NCBI GenBank assembly: GCA_017455495.1
Contig: JAFTAR010000061.1
Location: 1-42,612, forward strand
Direction: 5' to 3'
DNA length: 42,612 nucleotides
From: Prevotella sp.
Lineage (GTDB): Bacteria; Bacteroidota; Bacteroidia; Bacteroidales; Bacteroidaceae
A program made the translations under genes and the position numbers. The notes beneath the pieces were generated by a model that was not told where the DNA came from, made no database searches, and worked only from the letters and a program-made list of their open reading frames with translations. This document shows positions 17,321 to 42,612 of this stretch, one piece after another (the stretch's first letter is position 1; every line of letters begins with the position of its first letter).

Positions 17321-17382
17321 CAAAGATAGGCCAATTTTCGCTGTGGCGGCATAGTTATTTGACTTTTCGTCCTTAAAATATG
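17321..17382 (-). promoter_or_regulatory. rhaD promoter and rhamnose-type regulator box
   Basis: TATCTTTG at 17321-17328, then 21 bases, then the box 17350-17382, which reads on the minus strand CATATTTTAAGG, three bases, AAAAGTCAAATAACTATG. The same box and the same 21-base gap occur before GH115 and rhaB. AAAGTCA is repeated 21 bases upstream, as expected for two direct half-sites of an AraC-type activator. Confidence 0.75.
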
Positions 17383-17403
17383 ACTTTTTCTTTCCCAAAG
17401 CTC

Positions 17404-33662: not shown

Positions 33663-33737
33663 GTCTATTTTTCTTAGACAGCCAAACATTTTTAATAAAA
33701 AACATGACAGCCATAAGCCGCATGCCTGCTACAGCCT

Positions 33738-33799
33738 CATTTTTTGTGGTATAAAAATCAAATAATAATGTCACGGGAAGGATTGTTTTAGTAATTTTG
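33738..33799 (+). promoter_or_regulatory. GH115 promoter with rhamnose-type regulator box
   Basis: The 33-base box 33738-33770 (CATTTTTT, then GTGGT, then AAAAATCAAATAATAATG at 33753-33770) is followed by 21 bases and TAATTTTG at 33792-33799. It matches the box before rhaB at 30 of 33 positions, and the one before rhaD in its conserved parts. Confidence 0.8.
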
Positions 33800-33829
33800 C
33801 CCCCAACTAAAAACAACTGATAAACTATA

Positions 33830-36406
33830 ATGAAGAAAGCTTTTCTACTCGCTGTCCTTGCCGTCAACATGGCACTGACATCGTTTGCCGATGTTGTGTG
33901 GTACGACGGCACAGCCCCCGTTAGCTACAAACTGACGGGAAAGTTCGACCCCGTAGTAACCGTTGCCCTGCAAATGTTCACGAGCGACATGGAGCAAGTC
34001 ACCGGCAAGCCAGCAGTTGCCTCCGCTTCGGGCACCATCAGGCTCTATCAGCTTGACAAGGCAAAAGGCTCCGACGTGCGCCGGCTTAAGGCGCTGGGAG
34101 TTCCTACAGACAGTCTCGCCGGCAGGCTTGATGCCTTCAGCATCGTTGCAGAAGGCGGAAATGTTTTCGTAGTGGGCAGCAACGGTCGCGGCACGGCCTA
34201 CGGTCTTTTAGAGTTGAGCCGCATGGCAGGCGTTTCGCCCTGGGTGTGGTGGGGCGACGTGGTGCCCGAACGCCGCGAGCGCCTCAGCTTGCCAGAGTCG
34301 TTCACTACGCTGCAGGCACCCAGCGTTGACTACCGCGGCATCTTCATCAACGACGAGGACTGGAGCCTGCGCAACTGGGCATGGAAGCACTATGAAAGGC
34401 TACGGGTAGGCGACGGAACGTCGGGAATGCAGACCAGCCAGTTCGGCACCATGGGTCCTAAGACCTACAAGGCCGTGTTCCAGTTGCTGCTCCGCCTGCG
34501 TGCCAATGCCATCTGGCCCGGCATGCACACCGGCACGCCCGGCTTCTTCACCATTCCGGGCAACAAGGAGATGGCCGACTCGTGCGGCATAGTCATCGGC
34601 ACCAGCCACTGCGAGCCTCTGCTTAGGAACAACGTTGCCGAGTGGGACGTCTCTGCCCGTGGTCCATACAACTACATCACCAACCGCGACCAGGTGCAGC
34701 AGTACTGGATAGAGCGCCTGCAGCAGGTAAGGGGCTCGGAGGAATTCTTCACCATTGGCATGCGCGGCATCCACGACGGCTCCATGGAGGGCGTGAGGAC
34801 TAAGGAAGAGAAGTTGAACGGCCTGCAGCAGGTCATTGACGACCAGCGCGAGCTGTTGCGCCGCTATTATAATAATAATGTGGAGCAGGTGCCCCAGGTG
34901 TTCATCCCCTACAAGGAGGTGCTCGAGATTATGGAGAGCGGCCTGCGCGTGCCCGACGACGTGACCCTCATGTGGTGCGACGACAACTACGGCTACATGA
35001 CGCGCCTCAGCGACGAGGAGCAGCAGCGGCGCTCAGGCGGCGGAGGGGTTTACTACCACCTCAGCTACTGGGGGCGCCCTCACGACTACCTGTGGCTCAC
35101 CACCACCCAGCCAGGACTTGTCTATTCGGAGATGAAGGCCGCCTACGACCATAACTGCCGCAAGCTGTGGATTGTAAACGTGCACGACCCGAAGGTGGCC
35201 GCCTACGACCTGGAGCTGTTCCTCGACATGGCGTGGAATATTAACAGCCTCACCCCCAGCCCCTCTCCAAAGGGAGAGGGGAGTGGTCAGACTCTTACCA
35301 TTGAGCAGCACCTGGAGCGGTGGCTCTGCACTCAGTTCGGACAGGAGGCAGGCCACAGGCTCTTCCCCGCCATGAAGGAGTTCTACCGCCTCTGCGGCAT
35401 CCGCAAGCCCGAGTTCATGGGCTGGACTCAGGTGGAGCTGGCCGACCGCAGGGCTTATCCCCGTGGACGCTCACATGTCATTGACACCGAGTTTACCAAT
35501 GAGTTCGGGGGCGAGCTGGAGCGCTACCTCTCCAACTATAATGATATATGCCAGACAGTTGAGCAGACAGAGGCCCTTGTCCGTCCGGAATTGAAGGACG
35601 CTTTCTTTGCCCACGTAAAGTATCCCGTTCTGGCAGCCCGCGCCATGGCCGTGAAGATGCTTGAAGCCCAAAGGGCACGCTCCAAGTATCAGGGCCAGAC
35701 CGACCGCGCCATGGAGGGTCGCGAGGACTACATGCTCACGGCTTCAGCCCGTGCCATCCAGGCCTACCGCGAGATACAGCAGCTCACACATTATTATAAT
35801 GACAGCCTTGCAGGAGGAAAGTGGAAGGGAATAATGAACATGATGCCGCGCGACCTGCCGGTGTTCAATCCTCCCACCGTGCCCTATCTGCCAGCCTCCG
35901 ACTTCCTGCCGGGCTATGGCACATATACAGTCAGGACGGCACAGACCAACGACGCCATAGCTCGCAACGCCTGCCAGTACCAGACAGCCACGGAGGGCGT
36001 GCAGACCATACAGATGCTGGGCCACTCCATGAATGCCGTCAGCATTCCCAAGGACGGAGAGGTCGTCTTTGAATTTACCGTAGGCCAGGAAATGCAAATA
36101 CCCGGCAACGGCGAGGTTGCTCTCTATACGGCAATGATTCCCACCCAGCCGAACGACCGGGGCGACCTGCGCTACCAGGTGACACTCGATGACCAGGAGC
36201 CTATCGTTATCTCCCTGAAAGAGCCTTACCGCTCGGAATTCTGGAAGACAAGCGTGCTGCGCGGCCAGGCACTGAAGAAGAATACGGTGAACCTTGGCCC
36301 CGGCCAGCATACATTGAAAGTCAAAGCCCTTGACGACCACATCATCCTTGACCAGTGGATGATTGACTTCAAGCCCAACCGCAAATTCTATGTAATACCT
36401 GTATAA
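33830..36406 (+). CDS. GH115 family alpha-glucuronidase, secreted
   Basis: An 858-residue protein with a signal peptide (first 20 residues, ending before DVVWYDG). The body matches GH115: GRGTAYGLLELSRMAGVSPWVWWGDVVPE, YRGIFINDEDWSLRNWAWKHYE, then GMHTGTPGFFTIPGNKEMADS and VTLMWCDDNYGYMTRLS. The family removes (4-O-methyl-)glucuronic acid from xylan or arabinogalactan. A 40-base repeat (35248-35287) adds SLTPSPSPKGEGSG to a loop near residue 475. Its promoter shares the rhamnose box, which favours substrates that pair glucuronate with rhamnose, such as arabinogalactan or rhamnogalacturonan side chains; that is inference. Confidence 0.88.
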   Translation: MKKAFLLAVLAVNMALTSFADVVWYDGTAPVSYKLTGKFDPVVTVALQMFTSDMEQVTGKPAVASASGTIRLYQLDKAKGSDVRRLKALGVPTDSLAGRLDAFSIVAEGGNVFVVGSNGRGTAYGLLELSRMAGVSPWVWWGDVVPERRERLSLPESFTTLQAPSVDYRGIFINDEDWSLRNWAWKHYERLRVGDGTSGMQTSQFGTMGPKTYKAVFQLLLRLRANAIWPGMHTGTPGFFTIPGNKEMADSCGIVIGTSHCEPLLRNNVAEWDVSARGPYNYITNRDQVQQYWIERLQQVRGSEEFFTIGMRGIHDGSMEGVRTKEEKLNGLQQVIDDQRELLRRYYNNNVEQVPQVFIPYKEVLEIMESGLRVPDDVTLMWCDDNYGYMTRLSDEEQQRRSGGGGVYYHLSYWGRPHDYLWLTTTQPGLVYSEMKAAYDHNCRKLWIVNVHDPKVAAYDLELFLDMAWNINSLTPSPSPKGEGSGQTLTIEQHLERWLCTQFGQEAGHRLFPAMKEFYRLCGIRKPEFMGWTQVELADRRAYPRGRSHVIDTEFTNEFGGELERYLSNYNDICQTVEQTEALVRPELKDAFFAHVKYPVLAARAMAVKMLEAQRARSKYQGQTDRAMEGREDYMLTASARAIQAYREIQQLTHYYNDSLAGGKWKGIMNMMPRDLPVFNPPTVPYLPASDFLPGYGTYTVRTAQTNDAIARNACQYQTATEGVQTIQMLGHSMNAVSIPKDGEVVFEFTVGQEMQIPGNGEVALYTAMIPTQPNDRGDLRYQVTLDDQEPIVISLKEPYRSEFWKTSVLRGQALKKNTVNLGPGQHTLKVKALDDHIILDQWMIDFKPNRKFYVIPV
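35248..35287 (+). repeat. Palindromic repeat in the GH115 gene
   Basis: CAGCCCCTCTCC, AAA, GGGAGAGGGG form a hairpin encoding TPSPSPKGEG in frame. It is a variant of the GAGGGGCTTGGGGAG family. Confidence 0.75.
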
Positions 36407-36425
36407 GATGAAGGTACAGCACCCA

Positions 36426-36487
36426 CATTTTTTAAGGTAAAAAAATCAAATAATAATGCCGTAAAAAGGAATAATTGCATAACTTTG
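36426..36487 (+). promoter_or_regulatory. rhaB promoter with rhamnose-type regulator box
   Basis: Box 36426-36458 (CATTTTTTAAGGT, then AAAAATCAAATAATAATG at 36441-36458), 21 bases, then TAACTTTG at 36480-36487. The rhaB start codon follows 36 bases later. Confidence 0.8.
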
Positions 36488-36523: not shown

Positions 36524-38107
36524 ATGGAACAGAACAGCTATTTCTTTGCCGTTGACCTGGGGGCCACGAGCGGCCGCACCATCATTGGCAGCATCAACAA
36601 TGGAAAGATGGAACTGGAGGAGGTGACGCGCTTCCCCAACAACCTTATAGAGCAGGGCGGCCACTTCTACTGGGACATCTACGCCCTCTATTTCGAAATG
36701 ATCCGCGGCCTCAAGGAGGTTGCCAAGCGCGGCCTGAACATCACCTCAATAGGCATAGACACCTGGGGTGTGGACTTTGTGTTCATTGGCAGCGACGGAG
36801 CCATACTGCGCAATCCACGCGCCTACCGCGACCCCATCACCTTCGACGCTATGGACGACTACCTGCGTCACGTCGTTTCCCGACGTGAGGTCTACGACAT
36901 AACTGGCATACAACTCATGAACTTCAACTCGCTGTTCCAGTTGTACGCCATGCGCCGTGAGCAGAACTCTGCCCTTGACGCCGCAAAGAAAATACTGTTC
37001 GTGCCCGATGCCCTGTCCTGGATGCTGACGGGCAACGAGGTGTGCGAATATACCATTGCCTCCACGTCGCAGATGCTTGACCCGCGCACAGGGCAGCTCG
37101 ACGAGCGCCTGCTGCAGACAGTGGGCCTGAGCCGCTCAAAGTTCGGGCGCATGGTGCAGCCCGGCACCGTCATCGGCGTGCTCACCGACGAGGTGCAGCG
37201 CATGACCGGCCTTGGCCCCGTGCCCGTCATTGCCGTGGCAGGCCATGACACAGGCAGCGCAGTGGCAGCAGTACCTGCCAGCGACAAGCAGTTTGCATAC
37301 CTCAGCAGCGGCACGTGGAGCCTGATGGGAATAGAGTCGGAAGAGGCTATCATCAACCACCTCTCCTACGAGCGCAACTTCACCAACGAGGGCGGTGTAG
37401 AGGGCACCACCCGTTTCCTGAAGAACATCTGCGGCATGTGGCTCTACGAGCGCTGCCGCTTAGAGTGGCCTGAGGAAGTGCGCAAGCTGTCGCACCCGGA
37501 GCTTCAGGGCCAGGCCATGACGGTGGAGCCGTTCCGCAGCATCATAAACCCCGACGATGCCATGTTTGCTGCACCGTCGTCAATGATTGGCGCCATACAG
37601 CAGTACTGCCGTCAGACCAACCAGCCCGTGCCTGAGACACCGGCCGAGATTTGCCGCTGCATATTCGACTCGCTGGCACTGCGCTACCGCCAGGTGTTCC
37701 AGTGGATAAAGGAATTTACAGCCTCCCCAAGCCCCTCCAAAGGAGGGGATGTTGAGTTACATGATGCAATCTCCGATTCTTCATCAGGGTTTATTGGCAA
37801 CCAAACACCTCCTCCTTCGGAGGGGCTTGGGGAGGCTCTTGTCCTCCACATCATTGGCGGCGGCTCGCTGAACAAGTATCTGAACCAGTTCACCGCCAAC
37901 GCCACAGGTGCCACCGTGCTGGCCGGCCCGCAGGAGTGCACCGCCCTTGGCAACATCATGATGCAGGCAAAGGCAGCAGGCATGATGACCGACATCTGGC
38001 AGATGCGCAGCATCATTGCCAACTCGGTAGAGCTGGTGAAGTATGAGCCGCAGGACAAGGAGGCCTGGGACAAGGCTTACGAGAAGTACTTGTCAATTGT
38101 AGGATAA
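36524..38107 (+). CDS. rhaB: Rhamnulokinase RhaB
   Basis: A 527-residue FGGY-family kinase phosphorylating L-rhamnulose, the step before RhaD. FFAVDLGATSGRTIIG is the first ATP/phosphate loop, GIDTWGVDFVFI the second, GHDTGSAVAAVP and LSSGTWSLMG follow, and IIGGGSLNKYLNQF is the C-terminal adenosine site. E. coli RhaB has 489 residues; about 40 extra lie at residue 400-440, encoded by an element bounded by an 18-base inverted repeat (37721-37836). The insertion breaks the helix-to-strand junction before LHIIGGGS but stays in frame. Activity is probably kept, since the motifs on both sides are intact. The esterase gene follows 20 bases later. Confidence 0.93.
   Translation: MEQNSYFFAVDLGATSGRTIIGSINNGKMELEEVTRFPNNLIEQGGHFYWDIYALYFEMIRGLKEVAKRGLNITSIGIDTWGVDFVFIGSDGAILRNPRAYRDPITFDAMDDYLRHVVSRREVYDITGIQLMNFNSLFQLYAMRREQNSALDAAKKILFVPDALSWMLTGNEVCEYTIASTSQMLDPRTGQLDERLLQTVGLSRSKFGRMVQPGTVIGVLTDEVQRMTGLGPVPVIAVAGHDTGSAVAAVPASDKQFAYLSSGTWSLMGIESEEAIINHLSYERNFTNEGGVEGTTRFLKNICGMWLYERCRLEWPEEVRKLSHPELQGQAMTVEPFRSIINPDDAMFAAPSSMIGAIQQYCRQTNQPVPETPAEICRCIFDSLALRYRQVFQWIKEFTASPSPSKGGDVELHDAISDSSSGFIGNQTPPPSEGLGEALVLHIIGGGSLNKYLNQFTANATGATVLAGPQECTALGNIMMQAKAAGMMTDIWQMRSIIANSVELVKYEPQDKEAWDKAYEKYLSIVG
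37721..37836 (+). repeat. Element bounded by 18-bp inverted repeats inside rhaB
   Basis: GCCTCCCCAAGCCCCTCC (37721-37738) and its exact complement (37819-37836) enclose 80 bases; each arm also folds on itself through AAGGAGGGG or CCTCCTTC. No clear target duplication is seen. Translated it gives a Ser/Pro/Gly-rich loop with PPPSEGLGEA. Confidence 0.85.
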
Positions 38108-38127
38108 TATAAAAGATGTATATTAGT

Positions 38128-41100
38128 ATGAAGACTAAACAGCTCACCGTGCGTAATCTGTTGATGGCCCTTGCAGTGCTGCTTGGCAGCGTGGCTGTTG
38201 AAGCACAGGCACAGACCACCGTGCTCACCGAGGACTTCTCGGGAGCCACCAACATCTTCGGTGTTACAGGAACAGAAGCCGCTGCCAATTCAGCCTTTGT
38301 GTATAACACTAATCTGAGTGGCTTTGGCCCAGTGCTCGCCGTGTGCAACACTACAGCCATCGGCACCATAGCAGGAACCGACGGTCAGCCCGTAGCAGCC
38401 GACGGCGTGGACGTAACGGCCGAGTGGGATGCCTTCCACGGATACCTTAGCGGCGGCAAGAACAACGTAGTGTCCCTTCTCAACAGCGATGGCGAGACAT
38501 TAGTATCCTACGCCTACAACAGCGGCAACTGCACCCTTACCGAGGTGTACATTGGCGGCAGTAAGGTGGAGTCGTTCGCAGCCTTCAACTTCCAGAGCCG
38601 CAACGGCAGCAACGGTGCCAACGGCTTTGGCGGCAATGGCAGGCCTTACGTAGCCACTGCCGGAAATAACCCCCACATCAGCATCACTATGACGCCCAGT
38701 GGCAGCATCACCATTGACTTTACCCGTCAGGGCGCTACCACCACCGTACTCGGCACAGTGGGTTCCATGAAGAAAGACGTGGCCCAACTGACAGTCTACT
38801 CTCCAATAGGTAATACTGACCGCTGCTACGCCATAGACAACATCACCGTTACAACGGCTACCACCCAGGAGGATCCAGATGCCATTCCCTCTATTATCAG
38901 CGCCACGATAACCGGCGAGGAGAAGATGACCTTCGGCCCTGACCCCGACACGGCTTTCGAGAACCTCTACACCGTGGTCATCACCGGCAGCAACGGAACC
39001 ACCATCAACGAGCAGACGCTCCACTCAGGGGTGAATGACTTCAAGGTGGTGTGGGATATTGACGGCTTCCAGACCGCCAACGACACCGAGGGGCAGTACT
39101 GTGACAGCTACGGCTCGTTCTCTGTAAACGGCGAGGGCAAGGCAGCCACGGTCTTCATGCTGCGCAACGTGCCGATGAACTTCTTCGGTCGTATGACAGC
39201 CACCATAACCTACAACGGCACCACCACCGTGGCCCAGAAGTATGTCGTGGCCCAGGGCGACCTAACCCATGCCGACACGCAGGTGCTGCCCTTGGCCGGC
39301 TATCCCGCTGACTTCAGCACCTATCCCACCGCCCTTGACGGCTACACCCTTATGAAGGAGACCTACGGCAACGGCTCCGACCTGATAGTAGGCGGATGGT
39401 GCGTGGCAGGCAGCGACGGCGCCACCGCCACCCTTAGCCACGGCACAGACGGTACAGGCTTTGTGCGCCTCAACGCACCCACGGCAAACAAGTCGCATGT
39501 GCTTACACAGAAGATAGCCTCGCCTGCGCAGCAGGTCATCTTCACTTCAAAGCTGAGGTTCAACAATGCCGGAGGCGTGGTGACACTTACCGGCGGCTAC
39601 CCCTTCTGGAGCAGCAGCAAATATACCTGCCCAGTAAGCCTCAACTTCAACGGCACTGCTATCACCCTAAACGGCACTAAGCTTACCAGCGGCGACAACG
39701 ACGCACAGTTTGCCACCGGACAGTGGTATCTTGTCACCGTCTCGGCCGACAAGACCACCGAGACCTGCTACGCCATAGTGCAGAGCACCGATGGCGAGTT
39801 GCTTGGCAAGACCGACATCCTGCCATGGGCCGAGACCTCCACTCCTGAGTATTTCAGCGTGGGCATGGGCAACAGCAACACCGGCTCCATTGACATGGCT
39901 GCCTGCCAGGCTTACATTCCCGCCGTAGCAAGCTTCACCCTGGCTGCCGACAAGCTGACGCTCTCCATACCACAGAAAGAGCAGGCTGTGATAACCGCCA
40001 CTGTGGTTGATGAGAACGGCATGCCCGTCACCGGCCTTGCCATCTGGACTGTGGTAGAGGACGACATGAAAGACGGCATCACCATTACTACCGATGCCAC
40101 CGACAGCCACATGGCAACCATCACCCTCACAGATGCCGCCACGGCCGGCACTGCCACCATCCAGGTTGCTATAGGCGGAGTTGCCAAGACCATCGCCTTG
40201 ACGCTCACCACGTCGGAGGAGAGCATAAAGTTCACCAAGAGCACCGCCAGCATCGCCATTCCTCTTGACGAGAACGAGACTGCCACGGCCTCCTTCGCCG
40301 CACAGGTCATTGACGGCGAGGGCAACGCCCTGGACAGCAGTGTTACTCTGGCAGCCTTCGCCAAGGACGGCATCACGGCCTTCACCAACACCGGCGGTGT
40401 AAGCTTCGATGCCGCTACTGGCTTGCTCACCGTCACCGCTGCCGCTCAGCCCATGACACTCGTCATCCGTGCAACGGGCAAGAACAGCAATAATGAGGAG
40501 CTGACAAAGAGCGTCACGGTGAACATACACGGCATGAAGTTCGACTTCGGCTATGCCACCGACGATGCCATTGCCGAGGGCTACACCGTGGTGTCAGCCT
40601 CAACGGCTTATACCGATGTCAACGGCTACGGCCTCGTATCGGGCACAGCCACTGCCGGCGGCACCCAGAGCACCTCCAATGCCAATGCCGACTACCTGAG
40701 CGGAGCCATAGGCTTTAATATTAAGGTACAGGAGGGCGCCTTCTACGACGTGGAGATCACCTATCAGGGAGTGCTCACCACTGGCTACGTGAACAGCGAC
40801 CTGGCCGGCTACGAGCTGGGCACCCAGACAAGCCTTGCCACCGCTACATATACCATTCCCGCCACGACCGGCGTGATAGACCTCCGCATAGCCACCACGA
40901 CCGGCGTCAGCGAGGCCCGTATTGCCAGCATCGTTGTCACCAAGCAGGCTCCGCGCCAGAAGCGTAGCAAGCGCCGCGTGCACCACATCGGCGACTCCAC
41001 CTCGGCCAACAACGGCTCGTGGGCTTACCGCCTGTCAAAGTCGGCCAGCACCTATACGGAACTGTTCGAACTCTGCGACTTCCAGAACAACGGCGCCGGA

Positions 41101-41817
41101 GGACGCAACCTCTCCACCTACTACACACAGGGCAAGCTGGCCGCTGTGCTGCGCGACATCTATCCTGAGGACATAGTGATGTTTGGCAACAACGGCACCA
41201 ACGGCATGGGCAGTTCCTTCGAGGCCGACATGAACTACTATCTTGACGCTGCCGAGGCCCTCGGGGCACAGATCATCATCAACTCCTACACCCCACATGG
41301 AGCTGTGGGCAACTACTCCGGCGGCTATGATGCCACAACGCATACCTTCAACAGCTACCGTAAGGATGCCTACGAAACCGTGGTGCGCAAGGTGGCAGCA
41401 GAGCGTGCACAGAACGACGATAACTACATTGGCTTCGTTGAGATAGGCATGAATGCCGACGCAATCTTCAACGCTTACGTTGCCGACTATGCCGCTAATG
41501 GATATGCCTCGGCCGATGCCGCCGCACAGGCCATCATCAGCTGCTTCACCGACCACAACCACTATAGCAACGGCACCCTGGCCTGCGACCTCATGCTTGG
41601 CGGCTACCCCACCTGCGAGGCAAAGGGCATAGTGGACCAGCTTGTTGACCTGCTCGGCGATACGACAACAGGCATTGGCCGCCAGCCGAGCGTACAGCCA
41701 GTCTCCGCTGGAATATACGACATGCAGGGCCGTAAGGTGGCTGATAATATCAGCAGCACCGCAAGCCTCCAGCCAGGCCTGTATATCGTGGCTGGCCGCA
41801 AGGTAGTGATAAAGTAA
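38128..41817 (+). CDS. Large secreted SGNH esterase (CE12-like) with Ig-like domains
   Basis: A 1,229-residue protein from ATG 38128. A signal peptide ends after VAVEAQAQ. Residues 30-610 are beta-rich jelly-roll-like and unassigned. Residues about 590-700 are bacterial Ig-like (DKLTLSIPQKEQAVITATV). Residues 950-1185 are an SGNH/GDSL esterase: GDSTSA (Ser), NNGAGGRN (Gly), GNNGTNG (Asn) and TDHNHYSN (Asp-His). This resembles rhamnogalacturonan acetylesterases. The end, GIYDMQGRKVADN to PGLYIVAGRKVVIK, is of the C-terminal sorting-tag type used for type IX secretion. It is downstream of rhaB, which supports a pectin or rhamnogalacturonan role. Confidence 0.78.
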   Translation: MKTKQLTVRNLLMALAVLLGSVAVEAQAQTTVLTEDFSGATNIFGVTGTEAAANSAFVYNTNLSGFGPVLAVCNTTAIGTIAGTDGQPVAADGVDVTAEWDAFHGYLSGGKNNVVSLLNSDGETLVSYAYNSGNCTLTEVYIGGSKVESFAAFNFQSRNGSNGANGFGGNGRPYVATAGNNPHISITMTPSGSITIDFTRQGATTTVLGTVGSMKKDVAQLTVYSPIGNTDRCYAIDNITVTTATTQEDPDAIPSIISATITGEEKMTFGPDPDTAFENLYTVVITGSNGTTINEQTLHSGVNDFKVVWDIDGFQTANDTEGQYCDSYGSFSVNGEGKAATVFMLRNVPMNFFGRMTATITYNGTTTVAQKYVVAQGDLTHADTQVLPLAGYPADFSTYPTALDGYTLMKETYGNGSDLIVGGWCVAGSDGATATLSHGTDGTGFVRLNAPTANKSHVLTQKIASPAQQVIFTSKLRFNNAGGVVTLTGGYPFWSSSKYTCPVSLNFNGTAITLNGTKLTSGDNDAQFATGQWYLVTVSADKTTETCYAIVQSTDGELLGKTDILPWAETSTPEYFSVGMGNSNTGSIDMAACQAYIPAVASFTLAADKLTLSIPQKEQAVITATVVDENGMPVTGLAIWTVVEDDMKDGITITTDATDSHMATITLTDAATAGTATIQVAIGGVAKTIALTLTTSEESIKFTKSTASIAIPLDENETATASFAAQVIDGEGNALDSSVTLAAFAKDGITAFTNTGGVSFDAATGLLTVTAAAQPMTLVIRATGKNSNNEELTKSVTVNIHGMKFDFGYATDDAIAEGYTVVSASTAYTDVNGYGLVSGTATAGGTQSTSNANADYLSGAIGFNIKVQEGAFYDVEITYQGVLTTGYVNSDLAGYELGTQTSLATATYTIPATTGVIDLRIATTTGVSEARIASIVVTKQAPRQKRSKRRVHHIGDSTSANNGSWAYRLSKSASTYTELFELCDFQNNGAGGRNLSTYYTQGKLAAVLRDIYPEDIVMFGNNGTNGMGSSFEADMNYYLDAAEALGAQIIINSYTPHGAVGNYSGGYDATTHTFNSYRKDAYETVVRKVAAERAQNDDNYIGFVEIGMNADAIFNAYVADYAANGYASADAAAQAIISCFTDHNHYSNGTLACDLMLGGYPTCEAKGIVDQLVDLLGDTTTGIGRQPSVQPVSAGIYDMQGRKVADNISSTASLQPGLYIVAGRKVVIK

Positions 41818-41975
41818 AGTCTAACCGTCAAAATGTCTAAATGTCTAAATGTCTAACCGTCAAAATGTCTAAATGTCTAAATGTCTAACCGTCAAAATGT
41901 CAAAATGTCAAAATGTCTAAATGTCTAACCGTCAAAATGTCTAAATGTCTAAATGTCAAATTGACTAAACGTCTA
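41818..41975. repeat. 8-base tandem repeats with 32-base higher-order period
   Basis: About 20 copies of TCTAAATG/TCAAAATG fill the spacer between the esterase and the isomerase-family gene. CTAACCGTC marks longer units at 41821, 41853, 41885 and 41925 (spacing 32, 32, 40). Confidence 0.85.
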
Positions 41976-41998
41976 ATCATCAAAATATAAAAACAACT

Positions 41999-42612
41999 AT
42001 GAGCAAACCATTAGTAGAGACCAAAGCCCGCGTGGGCGTGTTCAGCATTGCACTTCAGGCTTACCTGCCGCAGTTCCCCCAGCTCGTTCCGGAGTTCGAG
42101 GCCCAGTATGAAGCATTCAAAAAGACCCTGCCCGACACTATTGAGATTATTGACGGCGGCATGGTGACCACCAAGGAGCAGTCAATGGAGGCTGGCGACA
42201 AGTTCCGCGCTGCCGACGTGGACCTGGTAATCCTGCAGATGCTCACCTACTGCACATCTTATAATATGTTGCCCGCTGTGCGCGACCTTGACGTGCCCGT
42301 GGTGATAGTGAACCTGCAGAAGAAGCTGGCTCCCGACTATGCCAAGACCGATATCCCCACCTGGCTGGGCGAACTGTATGCCTGCGGAGCCATCGGCGAG
42401 ATGGTGGCCGACCTTAACCGCGCCGGCAAGCGCTCGGCAGTCATCACCGGCGTAGTAGAGGGCGGAGACCCCGGCGTGCAGGCCGAGATTGAAGACTGGT
42501 GCCGTGCCGCTCAGGTGCGCCGCCGCTTCCGCGACACCAACATTGCACAGATAGGCCGTCCATACCCCGGCATGATGGACCTCTACATTGACGAGACAAA
42601 CCTCTACCACCG
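41999..42612 (+). CDS. L-fucose/L-arabinose isomerase family protein (5' part)
   Basis: The first 204 codons of a gene cut by the window end. MSKPLVETKARVGVFSIALQAYLPQFPQ, then LVILQMLTYCTSYNMLPAVRDLDVPVVIVNLQKKLAPDY and WLGELYACGAIGEM are typical of the N-terminal domain of the L-fucose/L-arabinose isomerase-like family. The metal site lies further downstream and is not visible. It follows the esterase after a 180-base repeat spacer. A role in converting a sugar freed by the upstream enzymes is likely; the substrate is unknown. The ATG at 41999 follows an A-rich leader. Confidence 0.75.
   Translation, partial: MSKPLVETKARVGVFSIALQAYLPQFPQLVPEFEAQYEAFKKTLPDTIEIIDGGMVTTKEQSMEAGDKFRAADVDLVILQMLTYCTSYNMLPAVRDLDVPVVIVNLQKKLAPDYAKTDIPTWLGELYACGAIGEMVADLNRAGKRSAVITGVVEGGDPGVQAEIEDWCRAAQVRRRFRDTNIAQIGRPYPGMMDLYIDETNLYH

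Follow-up and report, generated by a model that had tools for sequence, protein, structure and literature searches.

Can one monosaccharide regulator govern an enzyme of polysaccharide breakdown? The question is raised by a contig of Prevotella sp. (JAFTAR010000061.1, assembly GCA_017455495.1), whose 42,612 nt are called the window throughout. Here, similar sequence boxes precede the genes for rhamnulokinase (rhaB), rhamnulose-1-phosphate aldolase (rhaD), and an alpha-glucuronidase-type enzyme of glycoside hydrolase family 115 (GH115). These boxes are very probably operators of RhaR, a rhamnose-responsive regulator that would switch on rhaD, rhaB with the genes following it, and GH115. Each predicted operator is given below with its profile score and its mismatches to a structured search pattern, followed by the associated promoter element.

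33737..33770, plus strand: predicted GH115 operator; half-sites TCATTTTTTGTGG (33737-33749) and TCAAATAATAATG (33758-33770), 21 bp apart; 23.0 bits, 0 mismatches
33792..33799, plus strand: GH115 -7 element TAATTTTG, beginning 34 nt downstream of the first base of the second TCA, 38 nt ahead of the GH115 ATG
36425..36458, plus strand: predicted rhaB operator; half-sites ACATTTTTTAAGG (36425-36437) and TCAAATAATAATG (36446-36458); 22.0 bits, 1 mismatch
36480..36487, plus strand: rhaB -7 element TAACTTTG, read in the sequence
17350..17383, minus strand: predicted rhaD operator; half-sites TCATATTTTAAGG (17383-17371) and TCAAATAACTATG (17362-17350); 31.6 bits, 0 mismatches
17321..17328, minus strand: rhaD -7 element TATCTTTG, read in the sequence

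Promoters of the Bacteroidota carry elements at -33 and -7, and the motif TAnnTTTG, found after each box, is one that we take to be the -7 element. The first-pass annotation had drawn 33-base boxes at 33738-33770 and 36426-36458 (plus strand) and at 17350-17382 (minus strand), and re-reading the window showed these coordinates to be exact to the base. A recount of the letters likewise returned the claimed identity of 30/33 between the GH115 and rhaB boxes, and the rhaD promoter on the other strand does hold the same box parts, with identities of 24/33 to GH115 and 26/33 to rhaB; TAnnTTTG follows after exactly 21 nt at all three, as had been stated. Two points required amendment. The boxes had been placed correctly except for a start one base late, the full unit being TCA(N9)G-(N8)-TCA(N9)G, and the 21-bp repeat of AAAGTCA, which had been seen at rhaD only, is part of a 21-bp direct repeat present in all three. 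The operator can thus be described as a tandem pair of 13-bp half-sites, TCAwww(N6)G, set 21 bp apart, with the second TCA 34 nt before TAnnTTTG; the first half-site at rhaB has ACA instead of TCA. Outside the boxes, the GH115 and rhaB promoters are unlike (9/21 positions identical downstream, 10/30 upstream), and the idea that the GH115 box forms part of a longer, recently copied segment was therefore rejected.

How unusual is such a box? Upstream stretches of rhaB and rhaD were collected from genomes of the genus, window included (66 of each), and a profile of 36 columns was trained on 79 sites of other genomes (43 from rhaB, 36 from rhaD; none from GH115). Training sites were required to have TCA 34 or 35 nt before TAnnTTTG, with the first half-site and both G's not selected for. 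In the 63 other-genome promoters aligned at the 34-nt spacing, the two G's are nevertheless prominent (-9 in 63/63 and +12 in 56/63) and lie exactly 21 bp apart, and the first half-site retains its T in 46, its C in 62, and its A in 62. Among all 36-mers of the window on both strands, the profile ranks the three boxes first to third (rhaD 31.6, GH115 23.0, and rhaB 22.0 bits); the next two 36-mers reach 11.9 bits (a shifted one, overlapping the rhaB box) and 9.4 bits, and the maximum over 200 first-order shuffles of the window is 15.2 bits.

Pattern searches were also made. The matches of a 28-mer pattern in relatives were many and scattered, and the structured pattern, which is anchored on TAnnTTTG, took its place. 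At up to three mismatches, this pattern finds five matches in the window, where shuffles lead one to expect 0.77; the boxes themselves have 0, 0, and 1 mismatches, and the remaining two matches have 3 each. The organism's own draft genome (2.87 Mb, 71% complete; labelled G000, other G-numbers being the genus genomes compared) contains three matches at up to two mismatches, namely the three boxes, and none to the reversed pattern; a looser first pattern at up to three mismatches recovers the same three, with one reversed match. Over 100 genus genomes, the structured pattern matches 161 times, versus 7 for its reversed form. The earlier proposal that the motif would lead to further members of the regulon thus holds for the relatives, while the own draft genome yields nothing beyond the three boxes. 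Being AT-rich and continuing into a common -7 element, the box might be suspected of being a general promoter element or a compositional coincidence; with only three sites in 2.87 Mb, none reversed, and all three scores above those of the window shuffles, this suspicion is vanishingly improbable.

Which protein, then, would recognise the box? An AraC-type activator such as RhaR had been expected, and it is supported by the 21-bp repeat, by the constant spacing between box and -7 element, by the intact RhaR of the own genome, and by co-occurrence of box and RhaR over 66 rhaB promoters. Taken together, these sequence comparisons give good support to RhaR as the predicted binder of the boxes. The own genome encodes RhaR at G000:C8:1065-1928 in an intact open frame, 76% identical to the RhaR of G018, in which Pfam detects HTH_18 and AraC_binding; it lies behind relatives (35-47% identical) of two genes that precede RhaR elsewhere, and an AraC-type gene with HTH_18, HTH_AraC, and AraC_binding recurs near rhaB in relatives. 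RhaR is present in 48 of the 100 genomes (E 1e-25), counting divergent copies (43-46% identical) in G016, G038, and G077 and an 89-aa fragment in G049.

The promoters compared for co-occurrence come from the 68 rhaB-positive genomes (own included) minus G042, whose gene is 43% identical, and G074, which has no gene start. A rhaB box of at least 11 bits is found in 42/47 promoters from RhaR genomes versus 1/19 from genomes without RhaR (Fisher p 8e-11, uncorrected for kinship); the genomes are related and partly incomplete, and p-values hence overstate their independence. When rhaD and rhaR promoters are also counted, a box occurs in 47/48 RhaR genomes versus 2/21 others. Five RhaR genomes have no scoring rhaB box: G034, G048, and the trio G016, G038, and G077, in which rhaB stands behind rhaR and a pattern box precedes rhaR.

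The box might instead be bound by some other protein of AraC type, such as a hybrid two-component regulator serving a rhamnogalacturonan locus, with RhaR only travelling along. Hybrid two-component systems also possess AraC-type domains and direct-repeat motifs with a long spacer (PMC3878776), two large genes ahead of the own RhaR appear sensor-kinase-like by eye, and the 161 matches are split such that 29 (reversed control, 3) persist in the 52 genomes without RhaR, alongside 132 (control, 4) in the 48 RhaR genomes. The box, however, sits before rhaB and rhaD and is mostly missing from genomes that lack RhaR; rhaR itself has a box in front of it in G015, G016, G038, G077, and G087 (in G077 by pattern only, with a low profile score). 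RhaR of Bacteroides thetaiotaomicron, a putative ortholog of the Prevotella protein, is reported to activate the rhamnose cluster of that species (PMC3870299, with reference to Patel 2008). A binder other than RhaR is thus considered quite unlikely.

The GH115 gene encodes the following protein.

33830..36406, plus strand: GH115 alpha-glucuronidase-type enzyme, 858 aa; PF15979 and PF17829; signal-like N-terminus by eye

Family membership is clear from the Pfam model Glyco_hydro_115 (404.5 bits against a cut-off of 27). The nearest solved relative is BtGH115A of B. thetaiotaomicron (5by3), with 602.4 bits, the other five solved GH115 enzymes listed reaching at most 285.2. BtGH115A is described as the only characterised GH115 acting on arabinogalactan and as inactive on xylan (PMC9063842, PMC13059095), with the linkage that it cleaves being questioned in PMC9063842. 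For the window enzyme, a rhamnogalacturonan or arabinogalactan role would fit the regulon better than xylan.

That a glucuronidase belongs to the rhamnose regulon, as the first-pass annotation proposed, is likely on two grounds of comparative genomics: its operator has a profile score on par with that of rhaB, and GH115 occurs in box-driven operons of five other genomes. In G059, the order is box-rhaB-GH115-GH28-rhaA, with 21 nt between rhaB and GH115; in G097, it is box-rhaB-GH115-AXE1-rhaA-MFS, with a 3-nt gap; and in G275, box-rhaB-GH115-rhaA, the position of rhaB being taken from an overlapping locus. G031 carries a box-driven GH2-GH115 operon and G090 AXE1-DUF4861-DUF2264-GH115. A DNA search of 398 genus genomes did not reveal the GH115-box-rhaB order of the window elsewhere among the matches listed, the best of these in another genome (77%) lying inside the GH115 gene.

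Several observations weigh against RhaR control of the boxes or its extension to GH115. The TCA and TAnnTTTG columns of the profile are circular, because training sites were chosen by these elements at the expected spacing. G034 has RhaR and a good rhaD box together with a rhaB without box, and in G048 the rhaB box is visible and one base off the 21-bp period; boxes are present in G043 (81% complete) with no RhaR found, and G047 has a 16.0-bit rhaD site, again with no RhaR found. A canonical box directly before GH115 was seen only in the window among the GH115 upstreams and loci examined: 31 upstreams were scored and 30 loci scanned (own included in each) together with 12 further stretches, and another 29 loci besides the own were covered, partly from the same genomes and in some cases cut short at the gene start. 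Elsewhere, the GH115 site of G354 reaches 24.3 bits but lies 46 nt before the -7 element and behind SusC/D-sized genes. In G034, only the second half-site is correctly placed; the site of G030 (12.1 bits) is at the wrong distance, and that of G087 (4.2 bits) is at 35 nt. G032 possesses an operon rhaB-GH115-ISO-MFS-GH43, where ISO is an isomerase-like gene treated below, and neither RhaR nor box was found there; GH115 can thus sit with rhaB under other control. Finally, the excerpted text of PMC8002723 names no GH115 for the rhamnogalacturonan-I locus of B. thetaiotaomicron.

No other GH115 examined having the canonical arrangement, and the GH115 and rhaB boxes being more alike (30/33) than either is to that of rhaD (24 and 26), the GH115 box could be real but idle: GH115 or its promoter would have moved recently beside rhaB, carrying or gaining an unselected copy of the rhaB operator. 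This is unlikely, as the flanks of the two boxes differ and yet the operator and its exact 21-nt spacing to the -7 element have been kept. GH115 is moreover found in box-driven operons of different build in the five genomes above, which points to repeated recruitment.

The reading of the boxes as RhaR operators suggests a mechanism, for which the repeat, its spacing and conservation, the co-occurrence with RhaR, and the operon contexts, all seen at the level of sequence, provide the framework. TCA and G of one half-site are 10-12 bp apart and the half-sites 21 bp apart, as is usual for AraC-type domains. The step of about one turn within a half-site would fit a single AraC domain with its pair of helix-turn-helix motifs, and two RhaR DNA-binding domains are proposed to occupy the two directly repeated 13-bp half-sites on one helix face, two turns apart. 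Ending 21 nt ahead of the -7 element, the second half-site would overlie or abut the -33 region, a position from which bound RhaR could contact RNA polymerase where the -33 element is poor. In the 63 aligned promoters, the columns between box and -7 element that reach 50% form no TTTG-like consensus, in keeping with a promoter that depends on an activator. The effector is presumed to be L-rhamnose or a product of it, and bound RhaR would activate, rather than repress, rhaD, rhaB and the genes behind it, and GH115. The glucuronidase would then be made while rhamnose-rich pectin or arabinogalactan is eaten, and may remove glucuronic acid caps from the side chains.

The remaining genes of the putative regulon in the window are as follows.

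36524..38107, plus strand: rhaB, rhamnulokinase; closest to TIGR02627, at 495.0 bits (E 1.7e-148) short of the curated cut-off of 527.95; in-frame insert
38116..41817, plus strand: 1233-aa protein, starting 9 nt after rhaB; C-terminal part SGNH-esterase-like by eye only
41999..42612, plus strand: ISO, N-terminal part, arabinose/fucose-isomerase superfamily; truncated where the contig stops; 99% identical to ISO of G032 across 204 aa
16478..17287, minus strand: rhaD, rhamnulose-1-phosphate aldolase; NF002963 over its cut-off (304.5 versus 170 bits, E 5.3e-91)

The insert in RhaB comprises about 40 aa (window 37722-37837) and is encoded by a palindromic element, cctccccaagcccctcc ... ggaggggcttggggagg. 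Matches of most relatives to RhaB break at residues ~399-440, with G067, G081, and G040 aligning through the insert; similar fragments give further matches in the own genome (G000:C80 and C48), and a short SPSPKGEG-type stretch in the GH115 gene, at about 35250-35300, resembles it by eye. In the 1233-aa protein, a galactose-binding-like domain falls below the Pfam cut-off. In relatives, four rhaD-type boxes (G031:C147:14391(-), G090:C21:8176(+), G022:C3:61321(-), and G051:C42:65487(-)) are located behind a second type of rhaD, ~70% identical and on the opposite strand, and are possibly the remains of a replaced rhaD gene.

The gene at the contig end, preceded by a gap (41818-41990) that consists of a run of TCTAAATG/TCAAAATG units, raises a question of its own. 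Classical RhaA was not found in the own draft genome at its 71% completeness. Of 67 rhaB-positive genomes, with G042 set aside, 41 have RhaA and no ISO, 20 have ISO and no RhaA, 4 have the two together, and 2 lack both; rhaB is present in all 24 ISO genomes. Full copies are seen in relatives' loci (L147:11847-13277(-) and L328:7498-8928(+)), and those of other genomes are 83-99% identical to ISO of G032. For most of the 24 genomes, ISO follows closely after rhaB on the same strand of the same contig; G004, G025, G053, and G078 have it on a separate contig, a contig break splits it in G040, and another gene stands between rhaB and ISO in G032 and in the window. ISO gives no RhaA family match and matches only Fucose_iso_C (30.5 against a cut-off of 29.3) and Arabinose_Iso_C (25.5 against 25), each barely over. 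A search of Protein Data Bank sequences gave no match up to E 0.1, and an AlphaFold model from 10 near-identical sequences, with a mean predicted local distance difference test (pLDDT) score of 41.3, was not used. PMC5583593 takes fucI to be without homologs among rhamnose enzymes. From its distribution and position, ISO is a candidate for a new kind of L-rhamnose isomerase. In 13 of the 20 ISO-only genomes (G006, G007, G032, G033, G035, G040, G047, G057, G081, G082, G083, G095, and G098), neither a RhaR match nor a rhaB box that scores was found, G047 having only its rhaD site, and hence other control of rhamnose use may exist there.

How far does the regulon reach in the relatives? Twenty regions from 12 RhaR genomes, hand-chosen around pattern matches away from rhaB and rhaD and hence a selected sample, contain 23 sites of at least 14 bits with a -7 element at the right distance; one region, L324, has no such site. 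The first gene after the site is of SusC type in 6 cases and encodes a glycoside hydrolase, lyase, or esterase in 10 (GH28 and GDSL three each, GH2 two, PL11 and AXE1 one each). The others are DUF362-like (two), DUF4861, a metallophosphatase, an iron alcohol dehydrogenase, and RhaR (one each), with one unscanned. Induction of a rhamnogalacturonan locus of Segatella bryantii by arabinan and pectic galactan as well (PMC11107044) speaks against RhaR as sole control, and other regulators thus probably act too. It is somewhat favoured, on balance, that RhaR is a cytoplasmic rhamnose sensor directly driving rhamnogalacturonan use (SusC/D importers, PL11, GH28, GH2, esterases, and GH115) in addition to rhaB and rhaD, and that RhaA has been replaced by ISO, as a further non-homologous L-rhamnose isomerase, in about one-third of rhaB-bearing genomes of this Prevotella-like genus, the present one included. 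No paper on so wide a RhaR regulon was found in the open-access (PMC) literature searched.

Sites of at least 14 bits were also found at 30 of 80 named rhaB loci, some being genomes of the training set, with scores of 30.6 in Segatella copri, 26.2 in Phocaeicola paurosaccharolyticus, 24.0 in an Alistipes, and 22.9 in a Parabacteroides; at the 20.2-bit site of Dysgonomonas macrotermitis rhaB, no -7 element was found. This genus profile gives 10.5 bits to Bacteroides faecalis and 4.0 bits to B. graminisolvens, with the repeat visible at 35 nt in each, and the other 48 of the 80 loci remain below 14 bits.

AraC of Escherichia coli binds two direct half-sites 21 bp apart at araI1-I2, beside the -35 region; the window operators share this geometry and differ in half-site letters and in their Bacteroidota promoter elements. 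RhgR of Bacillales is an AraC-type protein. Both it and RhaS of Erwinia (rhiTN) resemble the system proposed here in that control reaches rhamnogalacturonan or rhamnogalacturonide use (PMC3870299), although they belong to other phyla and do not act on SusC/D loci. Closest is the RhaR regulon of Bacteroides (BT3768; PMC3870299, PMC3878776), which shares the AraC-family RhaR and a 21-bp direct repeat before rhamnose catabolic genes; the published motif being a direct repeat of 21-bp period (PMC3870299), the window operator belongs to a known kind. Among the features of a Bacteroidales RhaR regulon, an encoded RhaR, the 21-bp direct repeat, and an operator upstream of rhaB and rhaD are found here. 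In contrast to the single target operon described for Bacteroides by Ravcheev et al. (PMC3878776)—a reported property rather than a definition—three promoters carry the operator on one contig, one of them for GH115, and SusC-type and pectin-enzyme genes follow it in relatives. AraR and arabinan use in B. thetaiotaomicron (PMC5061871) offer a parallel in which a monosaccharide regulator affects polysaccharide genes, with a different regulator and sugar.

A precise operator is now proposed for a rhamnose/pectin regulon of Prevotella-like gut bacteria, many of the named relatives being rumen genomes. Through it, the GH115 enzyme of the window would be tied to rhamnose-containing pectin or arabinogalactan, not to xylan. 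If the reading of ISO as an isomerase is true, it would change how rhamnose use is called from genomes. The arrangement further suggests direct control by a monosaccharide sensor of polysaccharide genes for which SusR-like or hybrid two-component regulators are commonly held responsible.

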